Source: Cymodocea nodosa
Lineage: Eukaryota > Streptophyta > Magnoliopsida > Alismatales > Cymodoceaceae
Assembly: GCA_036874045.1 (NCBI GenBank)
Contig: CM072347.1
Span: 6,202,501-6,266,500 of the forward strand
Reading direction: 5' to 3'
DNA: 64,000 nucleotides
The translations under genes were made by a program, and so were the position numbers. This document shows positions 7,943-62,011 of the stretch, piece after piece. Within the stretch, counting starts at the first letter, position 1. Every line of letters begins with the position of its first letter. The notes below the pieces were generated by a model, which had not been told where the DNA came from, searched no databases, and saw nothing but the letters and a program-made list of their open reading frames with translations.

Positions 7943-9079
7943 TTAAGAACATGATTGTAAAGTAAAAGCAAATGGAATAAACGTGTCAGTCCAAGTAAAC
8001 TTTTTAGGCATAGTTCTTCTTACTATTAATTCTGTTTTAATGCAGTTCTTATTCCTTCTTAATTTGTAAACGTGTAATATATTTTAAATTCCAAATACAA
8101 GTGTATTACCATTAATGATATGAAATGCAAAAAAGGATCCTTTTCGGTTCCAAGGTAATGTAGCAGTTTCTATTTCTACATCTATTTCAATATATTCCTC
8201 TTCCCACTTCCATTCATTTATGTCTTTCATAATCCATATTTGAAATTTCATCAATTCATCCCACCATCTTATCAGACATAAAGTAGGATCATCATCTTCA
8301 TTATACCACATTCCTATTTGAATTTTATTAAATTCTGTAGATGGTGGTTTAGCTATTTCTTTCGGTATAGGTAAAATTTCTATATATTCATTATAACTAT
8401 CTATGCTCACTATGTATAAATCAGATCCAAATGCTATTGATATATCTGTGACTAGATATACATATCTATCAAGTATGACATGTGTTTGGTTAATTAATGA
8501 TTTCTAGCCTAGATATATCATAATATTTTCATTCCAAGATCTATTCAGAAAATTATACACACTTAAGCGTAAATCTTCACCCCAATTTCTTGTAGGTCTC
8601 CAATAATATAATTTTTCAGGAATTGTAGAATGTTTATCAAAAAATATTAAAGTCGACCCACAATTTACAATTGGTACTTCATATCTGTTAGGTCTTCCTA
8701 TATTCCATTCTTCTCTTGTTATAGGATTTCTTATCAAAATATCAGGTAATAAACATGCATACCTTGGTCTCGTCCTGTATATGATTAATCCTTCATCTAT
8801 CCCCATAATATGATCTATTCCTTCTAATTTATTGGGTGGAATTCCAGTAGTTTCTTCCATAGGCAGATATTCATGGTTAATTGAACTACGATTAAATGAC
8901 CTCCATATGAATCCATCTCTAATCTTAGTCATTTTTGCAACTTGTAGTCCCTAAAAATATTTTTCTTCGATACAATCTTTAATTTCCTTTGATACACAAC
9001 ACAGCCTGCACAGATCTTTAGCTGACAAGTTACTTAGTACTTCCCTTAGTGCATCCAATGATAATTGCATCAATTCCAT
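7943..9079 (-). pseudogene. F-box/FBA gene copy carried by gypsy element 1
   Basis: About 378 codons from an ATG at 9079 to a stop at 7943. The N-terminal F-box reads LDALREVLSNLSAKDLCRL and continues with V-K-I positions typical of SKP1-binding F-boxes (about residues 7-45). It is followed by an F-box-associated-type domain with RNPITREEWNIGRPNR (about 130-145), RSWNEN and RWWDELMKFQIWIMKD. Plant F-box/FBA proteins are substrate adaptors of SCF ubiquitin ligases. Here the gene is intron-free and sits between the gag-like ORF and polypurine tract 1, as in four other copies in the window. It carries a few breaks. The F-box call is good; substrate and function are unknown. Confidence 0.75.
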
Positions 9080-16771: not shown

Positions 16772-17910
16772 TTAAGAACATGATTGAAAAGTAGAAACAA
16801 ATGGAATTAATGTATCAATCCAAGCAAACTTTTTAGGCATAGTTCTTCTTGCTATTAATTCTGTTTTAATGCAGTTCTTGTTCCTTCTTAATTTGTAAAC
16901 ATGCAATATATTATAAATTCCAAATACGAGTGTATTACCATTAATGATATGTAATGCAGAAAGAGATCTTTTTTGGTTCCAAGGTAATGTAGCAGTTTCT
17001 ATTTCTACATCTATTTCAATATACTCCTCTTCCCACTTCCATTCATTCATGTCTTCCATAATCCATATTTGAAATTTCATTAGTTCATCCCACCATCTTA
17101 TCAGACATAAAGTAGGATCATCTTCTTCATTATACCACATTCCTATTTGAATTTCATTAAATTCTGTAGATGGTGGTTTAGCTATTTCACTCGGTACAAG
17201 TAAAATTTCTATATAATCATCATAACTATCTATGCTCACTATGTATAAATTAGATCTATATGCTATTGATATCTCTATGACTAAATAGATATATCCATCA
17301 AGTATGACATGTGTTTGGTTAATTAATGATTTCTATCCTAGATATATTATAATGTTTTCATTCCAAGATCTGTTTAGAAAATTATACACACTTAAGCGTA
17401 AATCTTCACCCCAATTTCCTGTAGGTCTCCAATAATATAATTTTTTAGAAATTGCAGAATTTTTATCAGAAAATATTAAAGCTAACCCACAATTTACATT
17501 TGGTGCTTCAAATCTATTAGGTCTTCCTATATTCCATTATTCTCCTATTATAGGATTTCTTATCAAAATATCAGGTAATAATAAACTTGCATACATTGGT
17601 CTCGTCTTGTATATGATTAATCCTTCATCTATCCCCATAATATGATTTATTCCTTCTAATGCATTGGATGGAATTCCAGTAGTTTCTTCCATAGCTAGAT
17701 ATTCATGGGTATTTGAACTACGATTAAATGACCTCCATATGAATCCATCTCTAATCTTAGTCATTTTTGCAACTTGTAGTCCCTGAAAATATTTTTCTTC
17801 AATACAGTCTTTAATTTCTTTGATACACAACACAGCCTGCACAGATCTTTAGCTAATAAATTACTCAATACTTCCCTTTGTGCATCCAACGGTAATTGCA
17901 TCAATTCCAT
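16772..17910 (-). pseudogene. F-box/FBA gene copy carried by gypsy element 2
   Basis: Same gene as at 7943-9079, with start ATG at 17910 and stop at 16772. Conserved segments include MTKIRDGFIWRSFNRSS, EGINHIMGIDEGLIIY, LPDILIRNPI and RWWDELMKFQIWIMEDMNEW. Because the gag-like ORF is missing from this element, the F-box ORF follows ORF4 directly. Several breaks are present. It remains strongly similar to the other copies at protein level, which suggests either recent amplification or past selection; codon-level comparison would separate these. Confidence 0.75.
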
Positions 17911-36535: not shown

Positions 36536-36608
36536 GTGCAGTAGTTATGTTAATTTTTGTCTCTGCTAAATTTTTGTTTGTGTTATACAAAATCGACAAT
36601 TAGAATTG

Positions 36609-37133
36609 ATGCAATTACAATTGGATGCACTAAGGGAAGTACTGAGTAACTTGTCAGCTAAAGATCTGTGCAGGTTGTGTTGTGTATCAAAGGAAATTAA
36701 AGACTGTATTGAAGAAAAATATTTTCAGGGATTACAAGCTGCAAAAATGACTAAGATTAGAGATGGATTCATATGGAGGTTATTTAATCGTAGTTCAATT
36801 AACCATGAATATCTGGCTATGGAAGAAACTACTGGAATTTCACCCAATGCATTAGAAGGAATAGATCATATTATGGGGATAGATGAAGGATTGATCATAT
36901 ACAGGATGAGACCAAGGTATGCAAGTTTATTACCTGATATTTTGATAAGAAATCCTATAACAAGAGAAGAATGGAATATAGGAAGACCTAATAGATTTGA
37001 AGTACCAACGGTAAATTGTGGATCGGCTTTAATATTTTCTGATAAAAATTTTGCAATTCCTGAAAAATTATATTATTAGAGACCTACAGGAAATTAGGGT
37101 GAAGATTTATGCTTAAGTGTGTATAATTTTCTA
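36609..37133 (+). pseudogene. F-box gene copy in element E, 5' part
   Basis: F-box LDALREVLSNLSAKDLCRLC near the N-terminus, followed by MTKIRDGFIWRLFNRSS, EGIDHIMGIDEGLIIY and RNPITREEWNIGRPNRFEVP. It breaks off at the LTR-end remnant at 37134. This copy keeps the N-terminal half without the WWDELMKFQIW-type C-terminal half. Confidence 0.75.
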
Positions 37134-41702: not shown

Positions 41703-42526
41703 GGTATGCAATTCTGTTACTTGATATTTTGATTAGAAATCCTCTCACAAGAGAAGAATGGAATATAAGAAGGCCTAATAGATATGAAGTACCAATTGAA
41801 AATTGTGGGTCAGCTTTAATATTTTCTGATAAAAATTCGACCATTCTTGAAAAATTATATTATTAGAGACCTACTGGAAATTGGGATGAAGATTTATGCT
41901 TAAGTGTGTATAATTTTCTGAATAGATCTTGGACTTAAAACACTATGATATATCAAGGACAGAAATCATTAATTAACAACATACATGTCATACTTGATGG
42001 ATATATATATCTAGTCATAGATATATCAGTTGCATTTAGATCTGATTTATACATAGTAAGCATAGATAGTTATGATAATGACTATATAGAAATTTTGCCT
42101 ATACCGAGAGAAATAGCTAAACCACCATCTACAGAATATGATAAAATTCAAATAGTGATGTGGTATAATGAATATGATGATCCTACTTTATGTCTAATAA
42201 GATAGTGGGATGAATTGATGAAATTTCAAATATGGATTATGAAAGACATAAATGAATGGAAGTGGGAAGAAGAATATATTGAAATAGATGTAGAAATAAT
42301 AACAGCTACATTATCTTGGAACCGAAAAGGATCCCTTTCTGCATTTCATTTCATTAATGGTAATACACTTGTATTTAGTATTGATAACATACTACAATTT
42401 TACAAATTAAGAAGGAACACGAACTACATTAAAACAGAATTAATAGCAAGAAGAATTATGCCTAAAAAGTTTGTTTGGACTGACACGTTTATTCCATTTG
42501 TTACTACTTTTCAGTCATGTTCTTAA
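41703..42526 (+). pseudogene. F-box gene copy in element 5, C-terminal part
   Basis: Contains the RNPLTREEWN region, SIDSYDNDYIEILPIPREIA, KFQIWIMKDINEWKWEEEYI and the C-terminal PKKFVWTDTFIPFVTTFQSC, then stop at 42526. The F-box itself is absent. Upstream is an A-rich run (41650-41700) instead of the usual hairpin gap. Confidence 0.7.
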
Positions 42527-46460: not shown

Positions 46461-46534
46461 CACGAGGGTGTGAAGTAGCTATGTTAATTTTGTCTTTGTT
46501 AAATTTTTGTTTATGTTATACAGAATCACAACAG

Positions 46535-47670
46535 ATGGAATTTATGAAATTATCGCTAGATGCACTAAGGGAAGTACTGAGTAACCTATCAGCTAAAGAT
46601 CTGTGTAGATTGTGTTGTGTATCAAAAGAAATTGAAGACTGTGTTAGAGAAAAATATTTTCATGGACTACAAGCTGTAAAAATGACTAAGATTAGAGATG
46701 GATTTATATGGAAGTCATTTAATCATAGTTCAATCAGCTATGAATATCTGAATATGGAAGAAACTGCTGGAATTCCACCTAATACATTAGAAGGAATAGA
46801 TCATATTATGGAGATGGATGAAGGATTAATTATTTACAGAACCAAACTAAGGTATGCAATTCTGTTACTTGATATTTTGATTAGAAATCCTATTACAAGA
46901 GAAGAATAGAATATAGGAAGGCCTAATAAATATGAAGTACCAACTGAAAATTATGGGTCAGCTTTAATTTTTTCTGATAAAAATTTGACCATTCTTGAAA
47001 AATTATATTATTGGAGATCAACTAGGAAGTAGGATGAAGATTTATACTTAAGTGTGTATAATTTTCTAAATAGATCTTGGACTGAAAGTACTATGATATA
47101 TCTAGGATAGAAAGCTTTAATTAACAACATGCATGTCATACTTGATGGATATATATATTTAGTCACCGATATATCAGTTGCATTTAGATCTAATTTATAC
47201 ATAGTAAGCATAGACAATTATGATGATTTTATAGAAATATTACCTATACCGAGTGATATAACTAAACCACCATCTTCAGAATATGATCAAATTCAATTAG
47301 GAATGTGGTATAATGAATATGATGATCCTACTTTATGTCTGATAAGATGGTGGGATGAATTGAAGAAATTTCAAATATGGATTATAAAAGACCTAAATGA
47401 ATGGAAGTGGGAAGAGGAATATATTGAAATAAATATAGAAATAGAAATAGTTACATTACCTTGAACAGAAGACGATCCCTTTCTGCATTTCATTTCATTA
47501 ATGGTAATACACTTATATTTAGTATTGATAACATACTACAAGTTTACAAGCTAAAAAGGAAAACGAACTGCATTAAAATAGAATTAATAGCAAGAAGAAT
47601 TATGCCTAAAAAGTTTGCATGGACTAACACATTTATTCCATTTGTTACTACTTTTCAATCATGCTCTTAA
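46535..47670 (+). pseudogene. F-box/FBA gene copy carried by gypsy element 6
   Basis: Full-length extent from ATG at 46535 to stop at 47670. F-box LDALREVLSNLSAKDLCRL, then EKYFHGLQAVKMTKIRDGF, YLNMEETAGIPPNTLEGIDH, RNPITREE, KFQIWIIKDLNEWKWEEEYI and a C-terminal PKKFAWTNTFIPFVTTFQSC. The product of the family would be an SCF adaptor if expressed. It has several breaks and is the most diverged full-length copy. Confidence 0.75.
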
Positions 47671-49440: not shown

Positions 49441-51378
49441 TGTTTAGAATGAAAAAGTGCATAATATTAACGGTTAAATGATGGTTAATTGCATAATATT
49501 TAGCTTATCATATGAGAATTAAGTCATTATGTTATAATTGCACTATTATATACTTTAATGAAAGAATCTGCATAATTTTAGGGAATTAATGTTAATTTAG
49601 TACATTTCTGAATTGTTAGTAAAATTGCAGGCTGTGAAATTCTTAAGTATCTGAATTTTTTGTTATTTCGGAGAGTTATGTTTAATGTACTGGATAGTTA
49701 TGTTTTAAAGAATATTTTATTATTTTCTAAAGTACACGTGTTGAAATCATAATGCATGACTTAAGTGGATTTTCAGTAAGTTATCTGTTAACTATCCAAA
49801 ATGCATCTAGGCATCGGATAGTTAGGTTCGTAAGTGTCCAAAATATCTTAACTTGTTAAGTTAGAATTATGCACGTGTTGAATTTAAATGCTTTAGTAGA
49901 TCACGTGAGATGCATATGTTTAACTCGTTAAGTTAGCATAACTGTACGCGTTGGGTTACATGAATACACACTACGGTAACACGTTATGTTAGTAGCTTAT
50001 TTCTTTATTGCACGTGTTTTAGTTAAATCAACGAAGAAAGTCCGTTGAGTTATTTGTAACTCCATGAACCTTTTATTTTCTAATATACCACTGTAGTAGT
50101 TATAGAAATAGGACATTCGAAGGAAAACCACGATTGCACGTATCACGTAGGAATTCACTCGTGGAAGAAAGAAGAAATCACCATCGTTGATATGAATGAA
50201 GGAAATCTAATCAATCATTTAAGCGGGAGCAATTACTATTGTAAGAAATATAAAAGACGAAGAAAAAGTGTGTGCAAAGGGTGTTGGAGAACCGTGCTAA
50301 TTGCAGGCAGCATTAGAAGTTCCCTAAAGCTCTGCACCACCACCATAATCACCAACCATCGGAGGTCTGTGAGGATACTTTCCTGATGTCGGGTCGATTT
50401 CGAGCTAAACACGGTGTTTGACAACTACTGTGATGAGTGATCGCGTCGCGAGAAGGGAAGTCATTTTCACCAAGCACCGATTCATATCTCAAGAGATCGT
50501 AAAGCTTCTAGCCTTAGTTTTGGGTTGATGCTAGTATGCTAAGGAGGAGATCATCTTGCAATTTTGGACTCATGATTCTATAGGGAGAGGAGATAAGATT
50601 GTAAGTAATTAAGTTTTTAGTAATGTAATCGCGTCGCATGTAGTGACATAAGTTTTACTGTCCATAGAGGTTTTTACATTTCACCTTTCATTCATCTTCA
50701 GGAACATATCAAAAACAAAAATACCAAAAACAACAACTTATCTGTGTACATTTAGTATGTAAGTGTTGTATTGTTTGTTTTGTATCGTGATTAATGTTAT
50801 CATAGTTAGTATTGTGAATGTTTTATGTTTGATTGATTCAGAAAATAGATAATAGTTTTTACAATTTACTAAAATTATTGTGTTCCAGATATTTAAAGAT
50901 TTTAATGGTTATTGTTTGAAATATCTGAATGTTAGTGTTACTTAATGATAAATCTAATTTTAACTAGTATTGAAGAGCTTAATTGATGTTATTTACAATC
51001 TGTGGAACCGCCCAATGGTTGGCCGAATTCCTTTGTAAATAGCAGTATTAAATTGTATTGTTAGACTTATAGAGTTAACTTAAGTCCACGAGGTTAGTCC
51101 ATTGAGTTAGCTATAACTCTACGAACTAGGTTTGTTGTATTAATTATAACTCAACGAAGTGCTTTACTAATCACATAAACTCCAATATAAAAATTAGAAC
51201 AGTACACAATTCTTACTCCATTTCTCTGTGAGATCGACCTATACTTGCACACAAATACAATATACGTTGTGCACTTGTAGTTAAAATACAAATTGGAATT
51301 AATATCTAATTTGTGTGAAAGTTTGTTAGTTTAATTCTAAAAGTAATTATTGATATAAGCATAAAGATAAAGTAAACA
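49441..51378 (+). repeat. 3' LTR of element 6, short-end variant
   Basis: Starts TGTTTAGAATGAAAAAG and ends AAAGTAAACA at 51378. It thus lacks the last roughly 60 bases (TTTTTCTAGTGTAGTGC...CCAAACA) seen in the other LTRs, yet it keeps TG...CA ends with a 6-base terminal inverted repeat TGTTTA/TAAACA. The U3 array (49650-49950) is reduced. The GC-richer block is at about 50335-50510. Confidence 0.75.
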
Positions 51379-51780
51379 AGCTTAAGATCTAATCTTTCAC
51401 ATCAATACAAGTACATACAATAAACATAATATCAAGTCTACTATATGTTGATACAGTAAAGAACCAATTATGTTTTTATATTTTCTTTGATCTATGATTT
51501 TACCTATGTTATCAATATTTAATTTTAATAAAGTACTCATAAGAATTCGTCAAATTACTATATCTAAAAAATTAAATTTCTTAAGAATGTTAACTACATA
51601 TTTTTTCTAATTTAAAAATAACCTTTATCTATTTACTTAATTTAAAATCTTAAAAAATATATGAAAACTCTTTCGTCGTACTTATTTCAATTTTATTGAT
51701 CATTTCTTGAAAAAAGAAAAACTTTTCTATAAATTTGTCAAAAATTACGGACAGTAAAAGAAAGGATTTTATTCATTACG
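51379..51780. other. AT-rich unique spacer left of the phosphate transporter
   Basis: Very AT-rich, no coding potential, no repeat homology recognised inside the window. Confidence 0.5.
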
Positions 51781-51797
51781 TACGTCACTGATGACAA

Positions 51798-51883
51798 TAC
51801 AGAAAAGTAAAAGAAAAAGAAAACCGTCGAAATGCCAAATTACAGAAAGTAAAAAGAAAAAGAAAACCGTCGAAATGTCAAAA
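51798..51883. repeat. 43-bp tandem repeat, two copies, 3' of the phosphate transporter
   Basis: Units 51798-51840 and 51841-51883 both contain AAAACCGTCGAAATG and an A-rich arm, with a few differences. They lie about 100 bases past the stop codon on the 3' side of the gene. Confidence 0.75.
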
Positions 51884-51980
51884 ACTGAGGAACGCTTTAC
51901 CTTTCATCAGCCATGTATCACAAAAGTCGTCAGTTCCCAACGTAAAACCCGACGGAGCCAGTAAATAAAAACGCTATGAA

Positions 51981-53850
51981 TCAGAGTCTCCATCTATTGC
52001 CAGGTGCATTGATGACAAAGCCCATGACGCAGCCGGAGAAGATACCGGCAATGGGCAGGGTGATCATCCAACCAAGGTAGATCCAAGCGACCATGCGCCA
52101 GTTGATAGCACGCCAGGTACCGTTGCAAAGACCGACGCCGACGGTGGCACCAGTAATGCACTGTGTGGTGGAGATGGGAAGCGCTGGAGAAACACCAAAT
52201 GTTAGCTGTCGATCTTTTATTTGGGAGAGCGGAGCAGTATGGGATCAAAACTTACCGAGCCTGGTAGCAAGGATGATGGTGATGGCAGAGCCAAGCTCAA
52301 TGGAGAAACCACGGGAAGGCGACTGGAGAGTGAGGCGGTTACCCAAGTTCTTCATGATGTGGTAGCCATAAGTCCAGAGACCGATCATTATGCCACCACC
52401 ACCGAAGGCAAGAATCCAGATGGGCACGCAAGCCTTCTTCTTGGGATATTTGCCAGTCTGCCAGATCTGATAGATGGACGAGTAGGGGCCGATGGCGTTG
52501 GCAACTTCGTTGGCACCGTGGGTGAAAGAGGCGGTGGCGGCGGTCATAACTTGGAGGAACGCGAAGATGTATTCCACCTTATTATCAAAGTGAGAGGCAC
52601 TAGCATGGGTGTCTTCGAGATCGCCAGACAGAACACCCGTCTCTTTCTGACTGTTGATGACATCCTTGTCGACACCTCGGAGGAGAAGCCACTTGACCCA
52701 CCAGAAAAGGACTGGGCCAGAGAAGAGCTTGCCCTCGGGCTTGGGACCGACGATGGACTTGTGCTTGGGCATCTCGAAGTCGTCGACAGCGTCGGGATCA
52801 GCCTCGACATCACCACTGGCAGCAGCACTCTTGCGGCGAGCCTCGAGCTGCTTGCGGGTGAGATGGCCAGCGTAGAAGTCGCGGATGCAGTAGCCGGAAG
52901 GAGGAGGAGGGACCTCGCCACGCCGGAGGACGAAAGGGCCCATGGGTATGTGGAACCAGCGGAGCTGCCAGTCATCCTTGACAACCTTGCGGTAGATCCA
53001 CGGGAGGAGGAAGATTTGGATCAGGAGGGCAAAGCCACAACCGGTGCTGATAATGATGCCAGCAGTCGCACCATTGGAGACATTGCTCTTGATCTGGCCA
53101 CACTTTGTAACGATCAACATACAAAGGAGGGAGGCGGTGACACCGAAGTACAAGGGAATGCTGTTGAGAGCGTACATGACGGGGTTGCGGCCGAGAAGTA
53201 CACTGTACTTGGTGATGAGGAAGATGATCGATGCGAAGCATCCAGAGATGCAAGGAGTGATAATCCATGCGAGGAAGACAGCAACGACACCAGAGTTGGC
53301 CTTGAATGTGCCATCCTTTTCTTTGCCGACCCAGGTCACGTTTTCAGCGCCGACAGCGGCAATACCCATACCGAGGACACCACCGAGAATGGAGTGGGTT
53401 GTCGAGACCGGGAAACCGATCTTGGTGGCCATGGTGAGGAAGCACGCCGAGGCCATAACGGCACACAACATGCCCAGCATCAGGATGGCGGGATCCTCTT
53501 TGAAGTGATTGGTGTCGACAATCTTTGTGCCGATGATGGTATCTGTGACACGGGAACCAGCGCCGACAGCGCCGAAGAACTCCATGATACCGCCGAGGAC
53601 CATGGCTTGGAGATAGGTAACAGACCTGGAGGCGACCGAGGTGGCCCAAGAGTTGGCAACATCGTTGCCACCTGAGGGGTGGTTGTCATGTTAGAATTCA
53701 ATTCTTTTATGGATTCACTCGCTTTGTTGTGCACTTATTGCTTATTGTTTTACGGTGGGGCAACAAGAACTTACCAATGTTCCAAGCGTGGAGGAAGGCG
53801 AAGATCGTTCCGAGGGCGAAGATGTAGTCGTACTGGCTGTAGAAGGCCAT
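51981..53850 (-). CDS. Fungal-type Na+/phosphate symporter (Pho89/PHO-4 family), 3 exons
   Basis: Exons on the minus strand: 53850-53775, 53671-52256 and 52183-51981, giving 1695 nt or 564 residues, intact. It is a PiT/PHO-4 plasma-membrane phosphate permease expected to import phosphate with Na+. The inverted duplicated signature is present: GGNDVANSWATSV (residues 26-38) and HGANEVANAIGP (410-421), each paired with a PVSTTH/PISTTQ segment (113-118, 500-505). A long hydrophilic loop (about 255-385) separates the two multi-helix halves. The closest family by eye is Pezizomycotina PHO-4/Pho89: DWQLRWFHIPMGPFVLRRG, VPPPPSGY and the C-terminus NWRMVAWIYLGWMITLPIAG. It does not resemble plant plastid PHT2;1. 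Both introns (103 and 72 nt) have GTAAGT donors and CTAAC branch-type motifs. Codons are GC-rich at third positions, unlike every neighbour. Start choice: the first ATG in frame with MAFYSQYDYIFALGTIFAF, which matches the family N-terminus. Confidence 0.92.
52184..52255 (-). other. Intron 2 of the phosphate transporter, 72 nt
   Basis: The minus strand starts GTAAGTTTTG and ends TTTCTCCAG. GCTAACA near the 3' end fits a fungal branch point. It splits the Ala codon 498. Confidence 0.9.
53672..53774 (-). other. Intron 1 of the phosphate transporter, 103 nt
   Basis: The minus strand starts GTAAGTTCTTG and ends CCACCCCTCAG, with TTCTAACATG as likely branch site. Splicing restores the conserved NIGGNDVAN motif. 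Confidence 0.9.
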
Positions 53851-54240
53851 GGCGAATTGTGACCGGCTGTAGTGGGGGCGGACCGGCAGCGCTTTTCTCT
53901 CTTCTCACTCTATTTGTGAATTGTGAGAGGGCGGTAGCTGGGGCTCCTCCAAGGCACTCCGGGGAAATGTTCCTTCTGCACGGCGAGATGTCATCGACAC
54001 GCCGGGGAAATGTTCCTTCGAACTCGTTGACTTGTCAAGTGACTCCGCTCTGATTCTGATGATGAAGGGAACTGGAAGAAACCTAAAGATGTTTCACCGA
54101 GCAGGAGGACGAGGGGGCTCTTTGTTTGAAAGGTCCGGGGAGGAGGGGGTCTTCTATATATAAGATTTTGAGAGCGGCTCGGGCCTAACGGTTTCCTAAT
54201 GTCAAGGGTTCCATACTTACAGACAAGAGAAGAACAGAAG
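53851..54240 (-). promoter_or_regulatory. 5' flank of the phosphate transporter
   Basis: GC-richer upstream region. A TATATATA box lies at 54155-54162, about 305 bases before the ATG. A direct repeat CCGGGGAAATGTTCCTTC occurs at 53959-53976 and 54002-54019. I looked for CACGTG, the site of the fungal NUC-1/Pho4 regulators, and saw none here. Confidence 0.5.
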
Positions 54241-55588
54241 GCGAAACCTGGGAAAATAATTTACCTCTGGTGTTATAAAATAATAAAATAAAAACCGGGT
54301 AATAAAAATTAAAATTTTATAATGATTATATACACCCTAACGCTGGCATATTAAGCTGCTTCGCTATTATTATTGTAACCGGAAGTTATTTAATACATTT
54401 TAAAAAAAATATCCAGGAGTGAATATGGTAAAAGGTTGGCGTTAAATATAAAAAGAAATCCGGGCCAAGGAGTGATTTATTAGTTATTAAAGCCACGGCT
54501 AGTAAGGCGATTATACTTCGAATAAACCTTATTGTCATTTTATGAATACGACATTCACGCTTTTTCTTAATAGAAGTGCCCTTTCAACCAATATCTATAT
54601 TGCACACGGTCTTAAAATCCATAGGCTTTGCCACCCTTGAAGGGAATTAATTAAAAATTGCCGCCAGCTATAAACGCAGGATTTACATTGACCGTATTTT
54701 AATTTGGCGACTCTTCTTAATTTATATTTAATCAATATAATACATTTCAAAACCACTGATTGGTCCAATACTAGCAACGAAAACATTCTATCGGTCGATT
54801 GGAAATGGTGGGGGATTTTTGTACCGATGCCAAATATGGGTTTTTGTGTAAATGGTGTGATTTATGCGATGAGTGATGTTACACCCTACATGAGATTGAC
54901 TCGGGTGATGAATCGATATAATTAAAGGTCGATAGGCGTGAAGTGTCGTGATTAAAGAAGAGCTTTGATTTACAATACAGTAATGTCGATGAGAGTCGAT
55001 TCATCTACAAGGAGAGAATCAACTGGAGCATTAATGGTTATGAAAAACTAAAGGTGGTATGCGAGCAACTAGAAGTAGGGATAGTTAGAGTGGGGGCACA
55101 TCTATTAGCGTGTGAAGCTAACACATGCTAGTGGAAGAGCATCGTTGGAGAAACTGTGACGAAAGATGAATAGTTGCATTAAGTTGTAATGGTGAAGTTC
55201 AAAAGATGTGACTTTTGAGCGAGGGGTGAGCAAAGCTTATATAAGGGGTTTAAAGAAGCGGAGCTAGACAATGTTACCACACACAACTAAAGACTCTTCA
55301 TACGTGAAGGTGAATCGTTGGATATTAGAGGATTGAGTGTTGTCATGTGAAAGCTTTATAAGTGGGTAAGACCATTAGCTTTTCAACCAAATAATTTGAG
55401 ATAGGTTAATCAAAGATTGAGATGTCTAGTGTTAATAGGATTTGCACTAACTTATAAGAAAAATCCTATGACAATAGTTCCATTACCAAGATAGTCGAAG
55501 GAAACTCCTCTACAAATTGTAGTGAAAAAATAGAGCAATTGATCAAGAACATCGAAGATAGGTTGATAACTATTGTTTGGGTGAATTT
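54241..55588. other. Intergenic segment between transporter flank and LTR fragment
   Basis: No gene supported. 54241-54840 is AT-rich with scattered GC words (CCGGGCCAAGG, CCACGGCTAGTAAGG), in my judgement more like degraded fungal intergenic DNA. 54850-55588 is more balanced in composition and resembles neither the LTRs nor the island. Confidence 0.4.
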
Positions 55589-59154: not shown

Positions 59155-60695
59155 TGTTTAGAATGAAAAAGTGCATAATATTAACGGTTAAATGATAGTT
59201 AATTACATACTATTTAGTTTATCATATAAGAATTAAGTCATTATGTTATAATTGCACTGTTATATGTTTTAATGAAAGAATCTACATAATTTTAGGGAAT
59301 TAATGTTAATTAAGTACATTTCTAAACTATCGATGAATTGCAGGCTATGAAATTCTTAAGTATTCGAATTTTCTATCATTTCGGAGAGTTATGTTTAATA
59401 TATCGGACAATTATGTTTTAAATGCTTAAAGAATATTTTATAATTTCCTGAAGTGCACATGTTGAAACCTTAATGCATGACTTAAATGGATTTTCGGTAA
59501 GTTATCTGGCAACTATTCGAAATGCATATAAGTTTCGGATAGTTAAGGTTTGTAAGTATTTAAAACACTTGAACTAGTTATTTCTTTATTGTACATGTTT
59601 TATAGTTAAATCAACGAAGTAAGTCCATTGAGTTATCTATAACTCCATGGACCATTTATTTTCTAATATGCCACTATAGCAGTTACAGAAATAGGACATT
59701 TGAAGGAAAACCACGATCACACGTATCACGCAGGAATTTACTTGTGGAATGAAGAAGAAATCACTATCATTGATATGAATGAAGGAAATCCAACTAATCA
59801 TCTAAGCAAAAGTAGTTACTATAGAAAGAAATATAAAAGAAGAGGAGAAAGATGAAGAAAGTGTGTGCGTGTAGAGGTAGAGGACTACGCTAACTATAGG
59901 AAGCATTAGAAGTTCCTTGAAGCTCCACACCACCACCATAATCATCAACCATCGGAGGTTTGTGATGATGCTTTCTTGATGTCGGGTCGATTCCGAGCCA
60001 AATACGGTGCTTAACAACTACTGTGAGGAGTGATCGCGTCGCGGGAAAGAAAGCCATTTTCACTAAGCATCAACTCATATCTCAGGAGATCGTAAAGCTT
60101 TTAGCCATGGTTTCGGGTTGATGCTAGTATGTTGAAGAGGAGATCATCTTACAATTCTGGACTCTTGATTCTATAGGGAGAGGAGGTAGGATTGTAAGTG
60201 TTTAAGTTTTCAGTGGTGTAATCGTGTTGCATGTAGTGATGAAAGTTTTTACTATTGATAGAGATTTTTACATTTCACCTTTCATTCATCTTCAGGAACA
60301 TATCAAAACAAAAAAATACCAAAAATAACAAATTATCTATGTTTACATTTAGCATTTAAGTGTTGTATTGTTTGTTTTGTATCATGATTAATGTTATCAT
60401 TGTTAGTATTGTGAATGTTTTATGTTTGTTTGATTTAGAAAATAGAAAATAGTTTAACAGTTTACTAAAATTGATTCGTTCTAGATACTTAAAGATTTTA
60501 ATGGTTACTATTTGAAATATCTGAATGTTAGTAGTGCTTAATGATAAATCTAATATTAATTAACATTAAAGAGCTTAATTGATGTTATTTACAATCTGTG
60601 GAACCGCCCAATGGTTGGCCTAATTCCTTTGTAATTAACAATATTCAACTCGAAAAAATTAGGCTTATGGAGTTAACTTAAGTCCACGAGGTTAG
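59155..60695 (+). repeat. Gypsy LTR, plus orientation, truncated at right
   Basis: Starts TGTTTAGAATGAAAAAG and follows the LTR (reduced U3 motifs 59370-59570, GC-richer block at about 59935-60110, GGAACCGCCCAATGGTTGG at 60600). Homology stops at the copia C LTR start (60696). No polypurine tract precedes it, so it is a solo or 5' LTR. Confidence 0.8.
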
Positions 60696-62011
60696 TGAAA
60701 GGACCTCTAGATTTTGATAATGTAAAAATCAATGTGAGGAATCAAATTGTATTTCTCAAGCTTAAAAGTCAGCAAGAGAGCAGAAGTTGATACAGACAGT
60801 TCAAAGTGTGCTGCAAGTGATAAAAAGGATTTCGGAAGGTTACCAAGCTTAACTATTTGGAAGAGATATATTTTTGGTGAGTTACCAGTCTAAGTATCCG
60901 AAAGGTAGCATAAAGTAGTAGCAACACTATCAGACAGTTAGAAGATTAAGTATCCGAAAGTAGAAGGCTTTCAAAGAGTTGAAAGATGAATGCATGAAGA
61001 ATCGAAAGTTACTGTAGCTAACTATCCGAAACTTAAGTCATTGAATTTCCCACGTGCAGAAATCCAAACAGAAGCTTAAAAGAATAATCAGAAAGTTACT
61101 AGAGCTAACTATCTGAAATTTGAAGAGTTTTAGTGGGTTACAGGTATAACAATTCAAAACTTAAGTTAGTCTATTATGCACGTGTTGAATTAAATAAAGC
61201 AGTCGAAAACTTAACGAAAGATTTCAGAGGGTTACTATAGCTAACTATTCGATAGTTAAATAACAGTTTGATAAGTTAGAACTGCAAGTATCCGATTGAA
61301 TAATAGCTCTTATGTACGATTTGAAATCCTACATGGTAGAAAGACTTAAGTGACTTTACGGTAAGTTACAAGTATTTTTCGGAGAGTTACATGGCTAAGC
61401 CTCCAAAAAACCCAGGAAATTGAAAGGGTATCTTGAAATATCTCCCTAAATGGTAACTTATCATATTTGGGATTGAAATCTTACCAAGTACAGCAGAATA
61501 CATCCATTGGAAGAAAAATATGATCGTTACACATGCTTAGTATATATATAAGCAACAGACAATAGAATCATATAGCTTTTGCTCATTCAAATATTTACAC
61601 CAAGCTCAACAGAAGAAAGCCTTTGAGATCAAATCATCTTTAGCATATACAGACTCAATTTTTAGAAGCTCATCACGCACTCAACTTTGATACTTTCAAG
61701 CAAGTGTTTTACTGAAGTATATGGATCAAAAACTTCAGAGAAAGATTGGTTGGAGCTACGACTTGAAAGTTCAATCAAATTGGTTGGTTCTTGCTTTAAC
61801 CTTAAAGCAAGTGATTGTAAGTTTGTAAAAGTTTAGTGAAGCCCAAGTATCCCTTGGGGGTGGACTAGCCGTTAGTGGTGAACCACCTAAAAATCTTGTG
61901 TGTATTACTTTTGTCGTGTGCTTGCTAATTCTTCATATCAATCAGCCATTAAATTGTTAAGAAACAAATTATTACCATTCACCCACCTCTGGTAAGCCAT
62001 TAGGTCTAACA
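60696..62011 (+). repeat. 5' LTR of copia C, about 1.32 kb
   Basis: TGAAAGGACCTC...GGTCTAACA. The U3-side half (60830-61400) is dense in TAACTATCCGAA, AAGTATCCGAAAG and TTTCGGAGAGTTAC motifs, with ACTTAAGT boxes and CACGTG words, as in gypsy U3 arrays. A 3'-half stretch, TAGTATATATATAAGC (about 61540), looks like a TATA box. Confidence 0.75.

Follow-up and report, generated by a model that had tools for sequence, protein, structure and literature searches.

The window analysed here is a 64,000-nucleotide stretch of DNA (C21:6202501-6266500) from a genome of 374.6 Mb in 28 contigs, and it carries a fungal-type phosphate transporter gene on its minus strand. This gene is referred to below as copy W, and three further copies elsewhere in the same genome are termed A, B and C. 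The features of the locus, in window coordinates, are as follows.

51981..53850, minus strand: fungal-type PHO4/Pho89 phosphate transporter gene (copy W), 564 aa, three exons, reading frame from 53850 (start codon) to 51981 (stop)
53775..53850, minus strand: exon 1 of W
53672..53774, minus strand: intron 1 of W, 103 nt, GTAAGT...CAG, at a position common to all four copies
52256..53671, minus strand: exon 2 of W
52184..52255, minus strand: intron 2 of W, 72 nt, at a position common to all four copies
51981..52183, minus strand: exon 3 of W, stop codon included
51755..53962, minus strand: core block alignable in all four copies, comprising the gene with some 110 bp before it and some 225 bp after it
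53963..55563, minus strand: upstream stretch shared, among the other three copies, with copy A only, at 85-92% in pieces; the genome-wide search reached 54850
54352..54529, minus strand: single module of W homologous to a 170-bp module of copy A, with both P1BS sites present in A altered

Both introns of W have GT-AG borders, and the predicted product matches the full PHO4 profile of Pfam (PF01384, positions 1-350 of 350; 395.5 bits, E 2.4e-118). The gene forms a GC-rich island: the GC fraction of the two 1-kb bins that cover it is 0.560 and 0.536, that of the adjoining bins 0.280 and 0.375, and that of the surrounding window DNA 0.23-0.42. The initial annotation had described an intact Pho89/PHO-4 gene of fungal type at this place. 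The description is borne out by the three-exon reading frame, the full-length PF01384 match and the ascomycete relatives described below. The word intact holds for the frame, which is whole, but not for the protein, which looks relaxed and has lost the aspartate of its second signature.

The flanks of W carry copia-type gag/pol domains, an integrase core and an F-box ORF, as identified with Pfam. Copia-type domains and F-box sequence had been reported earlier for these flanks and were recovered; the PF20167-like sequence reported with them corresponds to a nearby match that scores under that family's curated cut-off. The F-box-type ORF lies at 46481-46909 and matches PF00646, while the ORFs at 8084-8932, 16772-17842, 36606-37079 and 42215-42526 look similar, on visual comparison, to this ORF or to its downstream portion, and several broken F-box-type ORFs are strewn through the retroelement sequence of the window. 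The transporter island is flanked by two direct repeat copies (49441-51098 and 59155-60696, 84-95% in pieces), to which related copies also occur near A and C on C14. Database comparison of the copia gag of the window gave one 92% partial match and otherwise mixed angiosperms.

The transporter gene is present four times in this genome. A whole-genome DNA search with the W gene found four places, at identities of 100% (W), 94% (A), 85% (C) and 84% (B), distributed over two contigs of 12.9 and 20.5 Mb, with W on C21 and the other three on C14. A profile search with PF01384 gave eight matches, comprising one each for W, A (C14:9.13 Mb) and C (C14:17.25 Mb), two for B (C14:17.20 Mb), which is split at intron 2, and three at plant-type loci, two on C6 and one on C5. 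The reading frame is open in all four copies (563, 574, 574 and 564 aa in A, B, C and W), and both introns lie at the same places in each. The retained introns suggest that DNA was transferred and not a spliced message, and the core block alignable in all copies would set the minimum length of the transferred DNA at about 2.2 kb. Copies A and W have about 3.7 kb of sequence in common, in pieces, including an AT-rich flank. In the 3' flank of copy B, a 2.16-kb stretch of 20% GC (C14:17203310-17205466) splits off a second piece of homologous 3' flank; similar stretches recur nearby, and on inspection the candidate transposon consisted of AT-rich repeats only. An amino acid permease ORF with an AA_permease_C domain lies about 22-23 kb beyond copy C.

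The affinity of the encoded protein is fungal. Relatives of W numbered 2549 among 7996 scored candidates, and the best 120 of these 2549 were compared; they share 57-75% identity with W, and those that are named are all ascomycetes. The nearest named relative among these 120 is MKZ38_004211 of Zalerion maritima (74%), a member of the Lulworthiales, and the host copies are 72-79% identical to their four nearest relatives. A tree was built from the four copies and 45 of the best 120 relatives, and in it the copies lie inside Sordariomycete sequences. The copies form one clade (support 100/99) made up of the pairs A/W (100/99) and B/C (100/97), and this clade is nested with Zalerion and the Logan proteins P0001, P0002, P0004 and P0005 (100/99). 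The candidate sister of the host clade within this lineage is P0001, at a support of 70/41. Placement of the host copies outside the five-protein lineage P0001-P0005 was rejected (p-AU 0.017), and holding P0001-P0004 together without the host copies was not (p-AU 0.22). The source lineage, as far as the sampled relatives indicate, would thus be lulworthialean. The contigs behind the four Logan proteins are short, the longest measuring 2.1-2.5 kb, and the proteins are whole and intronless, as from transcripts; they may be fungal, or some of them may stem from other plants that carry this transfer.

The copies differ in how strongly they have been held by selection. Pairwise comparison among them gives dS of 0.11-0.30 and dN/dS of 0.38-0.48. 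Changes were assigned to branches by parsimony, excluding 33 ambiguous sites, and compared with simulated neutral change at two transition biases. The synonymous/nonsynonymous counts are 20/17 for A, 13/27 for W, 19/29 for B, 13/22 for C and 50/71 for the branch that separates the two pairs. Constraint is strong on copy A, with 17 of 37 changes nonsynonymous against about 27 expected under neutrality (P 0.0000 and 0.0010 at the two biases), and weak on B (P 0.02-0.05). Copies C (P 0.10-0.14) and W (27 of 40 changes nonsynonymous, P 0.21-0.29) are indistinguishable from neutral. The branch between A/W and B/C is constrained as well (71 of 121 nonsynonymous, P 0.0001-0.001), and part of it may lie in the fungus. 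Selection within the host is thus indicated for A and weakly for B, with C and W compatible with neutrality. The open frames by themselves are weak evidence, since the chance of encountering no stop is P 0.25-0.37.

Changes at conserved sites mark W in particular. In an alignment of 65 proteins (W and 64 of the best 120 relatives), W deviates at seven otherwise invariant columns and the next row at three; at columns of the same alignment conserved to at least 97%, W deviates seven times and two relatives six times, so that W comes first by little. Across 119 relatives (one of the best 120 was dropped for length), 192 columns are conserved to at least 97%, and deviations at these number eight in W, eight in B, three in A and three in C, with a median of zero and a maximum of seven among the relatives. 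The changes in W include D21H, R73G and D414E, the last of which falls in the second signature. W reads GGNDVANS and GANEVANA at its two signatures, with the second aspartate replaced; A, B and C keep the aspartate in both. The alanine of the first signature, GANDVANS, is replaced by glycine or serine in all four copies. D414 aligns with an aspartate of the solved PiT chain 6l85, and we take this second-signature residue to be essential in PiT transporters. Relaxed selection together with the changed conserved sites suggests that W is a decaying duplicate.

Copy A is also distinguished by its upstream region. P1BS is a plant phosphate-starvation element, GNATATNC, as described in PMC13044247. 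Within 1 kb upstream there are six P1BS elements in A (0.29 expected), one in B (0.23 expected) and none in C or W. Those of A are paired, the two sites of each doublet lying 14 bp from one another within a 170-bp module that is repeated in tandem 3.0 times (L001 323-828; C14 at about 9.128 Mb), so that the six sites reflect the amplification of one doublet and not six independent events. Across the 229 kb of host DNA examined, doublets spaced by at most 25 bp occurred solely in these three modules. The sites may have been gained in A or lost in the single homologous module of W, B and C being without the region. The other promoter motifs counted within 1 kb, CACGTG and CACGTK, occurred just once, as a CACGTK in B, and neither is present in A, C or W. 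This arrangement is consistent with copy A being under PHR1/P1BS phosphate-starvation control of the host.

Two native PHT2-type loci are present in the genome, on C5 and C6. The nearest database proteins to the PHT2 protein of this plant are P0230 (80% over 93% of length) and P0245 (87% over 82%), followed by proteins of Anthurium, Musa, Acorus, Elaeis and others; P0230 and P0245 (Logan and JGI proteins) are perhaps from another submerged alismatid. A PHT2 tree with 40 of the best 120 relatives places the host inside the monocots (98/97), with its exact place weakly supported (89/73) and an outgroup that was not clean. The seven EPF-family matches of the genome are all of EPFL type by eye, and by their motifs none was recognised as EPF1, EPF2 or EPFL9. 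Seagrasses have lost EPF1/2, and losses in the same stomatal toolkit are described for freshwater Potamogeton (PMC7615686). Taken together, the position of PHT2 in monocots, the apparently EPFL-only peptides and the probable lulworthialean donor make a submerged alismatid monocot, and specifically a seagrass, the most likely host. The parasitic or mycoheterotrophic plant suggested earlier found nothing in its favour, and the evidence points instead to a submerged, probably marine, alismatid monocot. Among seagrasses, Cymodocea nodosa has 18 chromosomes (PMC7615686).

The residence of a fungal-type gene in a plant assembly can be explained in several ways. A chimeric contig, in which fungal contaminant DNA was misjoined into the plant assembly, was the alternative offered by the initial annotation, and the abrupt GC step at the island edges and the entirely fungal protein affinity are what it would produce. 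It is contradicted, at the level of the assembly, by the four diverged copies on two large contigs, C14 and C21, from which integration in host chromosomes is read, and by the roughly 3.7 kb, in pieces, that A and W have in common together with an AT-rich flank. The copies have moreover drifted toward AT: the four terminal branches carry 82 GC-to-AT against 45 AT-to-GC changes (p 0.0013 against equal flux), and synonymous changes alone number 38 toward AT against 18 (p 0.010), as expected for residence in an AT-rich host. No relative among the best 120 of 2549 exceeds 75% identity. Chitin synthases belong to fungi and are not known from plants, and a search of the 375-Mb genome for PF03142 gave zero matches, the 14 control genomes of that search including no fungus. 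We consider a chimera highly improbable on these grounds. The gene might instead be a vertical survivor of the Pho89-like PTB Na+/phosphate symporters, which occur in green algae and bryophytes (PMC11528361). The transporter tree, in which the copies nest in Sordariomycete sequences at 72-79% identity to the nearest four, argues against this identity, and the best 120 of 2549 relatives include no named plant or alga; we give such survival a negligible chance. Plant PHT2 identity was likewise rejected, in line with the earlier statement that W is not of this family, as W is only 36-37% identical to the host PHT2 loci over the best pieces.

Two further explanations accept a transfer and differ in its history or its outcome. 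Two or more donor paralogues may have been transferred, together or separately, in which case A/W and B/C would have begun to diverge, and to be held by purifying selection, while still in the fungus. The separation of the two pairs by dS 0.25-0.30 would fit such a history. However, the four copies form one clade (100/99) that excludes the 45 relatives used, and a single plant genome contains them all, with three on the same contig; we judge this history unlikely. Alternatively, the transfer could be real and every copy a dead or dying passenger without function in the plant. The neutral-like change in W (P 0.21-0.29) and C (P 0.10-0.14), the weak constraint on B (P 0.02-0.05), the signature changes in W and the chance of retaining open frames (P 0.25-0.37) all lean in that direction; the strong constraint on A (P at most 0.001), the constrained branch between the pairs and the P1BS doublets upstream of A speak against it, and this outcome appears quite improbable to us. 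A single fungus-to-plant transfer followed by duplications, with copy A and perhaps C functional and W decaying, is in our assessment very probable. The earlier proposal of a fungus-to-plant transfer is supported by four diverged copies on two large contigs, with shared introns, membership in one clade and no chitin synthase match.

For this single transfer, the following course of events is proposed. The donor would have been a Sordariomycete carrying a Pho89/PHO4-type gene, most likely a marine fungus of the Lulworthiales. The route is suggested by the marine fungi that live in seagrass roots: Lulworthiales inhabit such roots (PMC11278098), and a Lulworthiales fungus has been described as a symbiont in the roots of a Cymodoceaceae seagrass (PMC12365678). 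The recipient would have been an alismatid monocot, probably a seagrass, whose nuclear genome took up at least about 2.2 kb of DNA with the introns in place. The gene has been duplicated into the pairs A/W and B/C, both duplications presumably having taken place in the plant. Copy A, and perhaps C, may still act as a plasma-membrane Na+/phosphate symporter driven by the inward Na+ gradient of seawater at alkaline pH. Phosphate starvation would induce copy A by way of the plant P1BS elements, and W would be a decaying duplicate. A working role for A, and perhaps for C, is proposed from the purifying selection on A, the conserved sites in both, the P1BS doublets of A and the chemistry of Pho89. 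In yeast, Pho89 is a high-affinity Na+/phosphate symporter with an optimum at pH 9.5, a Km of 0.5 uM and two Na+ per phosphate (PMC3633241). In seagrasses, phosphate enters the cells of leaves and roots by Na+-dependent, high-affinity uptake, through transporters whose molecular identity was open in 2018 (PMC6032226). Na+ coupling, membrane location, induction by starvation and the marine habit are all predictions for this host. In its most specific form, the proposal is that a marine angiosperm regained Na+-coupled, alkaline-optimum phosphate uptake with a symporter gene of a lulworthialean fungus associated with seagrasses, amplified the gene and placed one copy under PHR1/P1BS control, and we regard this as evenly balanced between true and false.

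Comparison with known transporters places the host copies closest to the fungal Pho89/pho-4 permeases (PiT, TC 2.A.20, PF01384), with which they share the full-length PHO4 domain, 74% identity to Zalerion and the same length class. By analogy with fungal Pho89, Na+/phosphate symport at alkaline pH would be expected. Unlike these permeases, the host genes reside in a plant genome in four copies and have the first-signature alanine altered, and W has additionally lost its second aspartate. PHT2 transporters, whose role is in the chloroplast, share the Pfam family but differ in exon layout, and the host copies match them at 36-37% over the best pieces. The PTB symporters of green algae and bryophytes are also Pho89-like, with Na+-coupled phosphate uptake, and the uptake systems are described as having shifted gradually during terrestrialisation (PMC11528361). 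PTB symporters are inherited vertically in algae and bryophytes, whereas the host copies are of fungal derivation in an angiosperm.

Well-supported gene transfers from fungi to angiosperms are, to our knowledge, few. Fhb7, passed from Epichloe to a grass, is likewise a fungus-to-angiosperm transfer with a proposed benefit (PMC12448838); it encodes a glutathione S-transferase, whereas the gene described here encodes a nutrient transporter that is duplicated and accompanied by candidate host regulatory elements. The main text of that review of horizontal gene transfer has no occurrence of the words "transporter" or "phosphate", and the seagrass genome paper (PMC7615686) contains in its main text no word beginning with "horizontal-" and one with "phosph-", in another context. 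A literature search of open-access papers yielded no earlier report of this transfer among the matches listed.

For a seagrass host, the result would touch on a question raised in print, namely which molecules carry out the high-affinity, Na+-dependent phosphate transport of seagrasses (PMC6032226). If the proposal is true, at least some of the Na+-dependent uptake of phosphate recorded in these plants would gain a molecular identity, and the transfer could help explain Na+-coupled phosphate uptake by a plant of salty, alkaline water. A mode of uptake that the land-plant ancestors of the host had given up would then have been regained by transfer.
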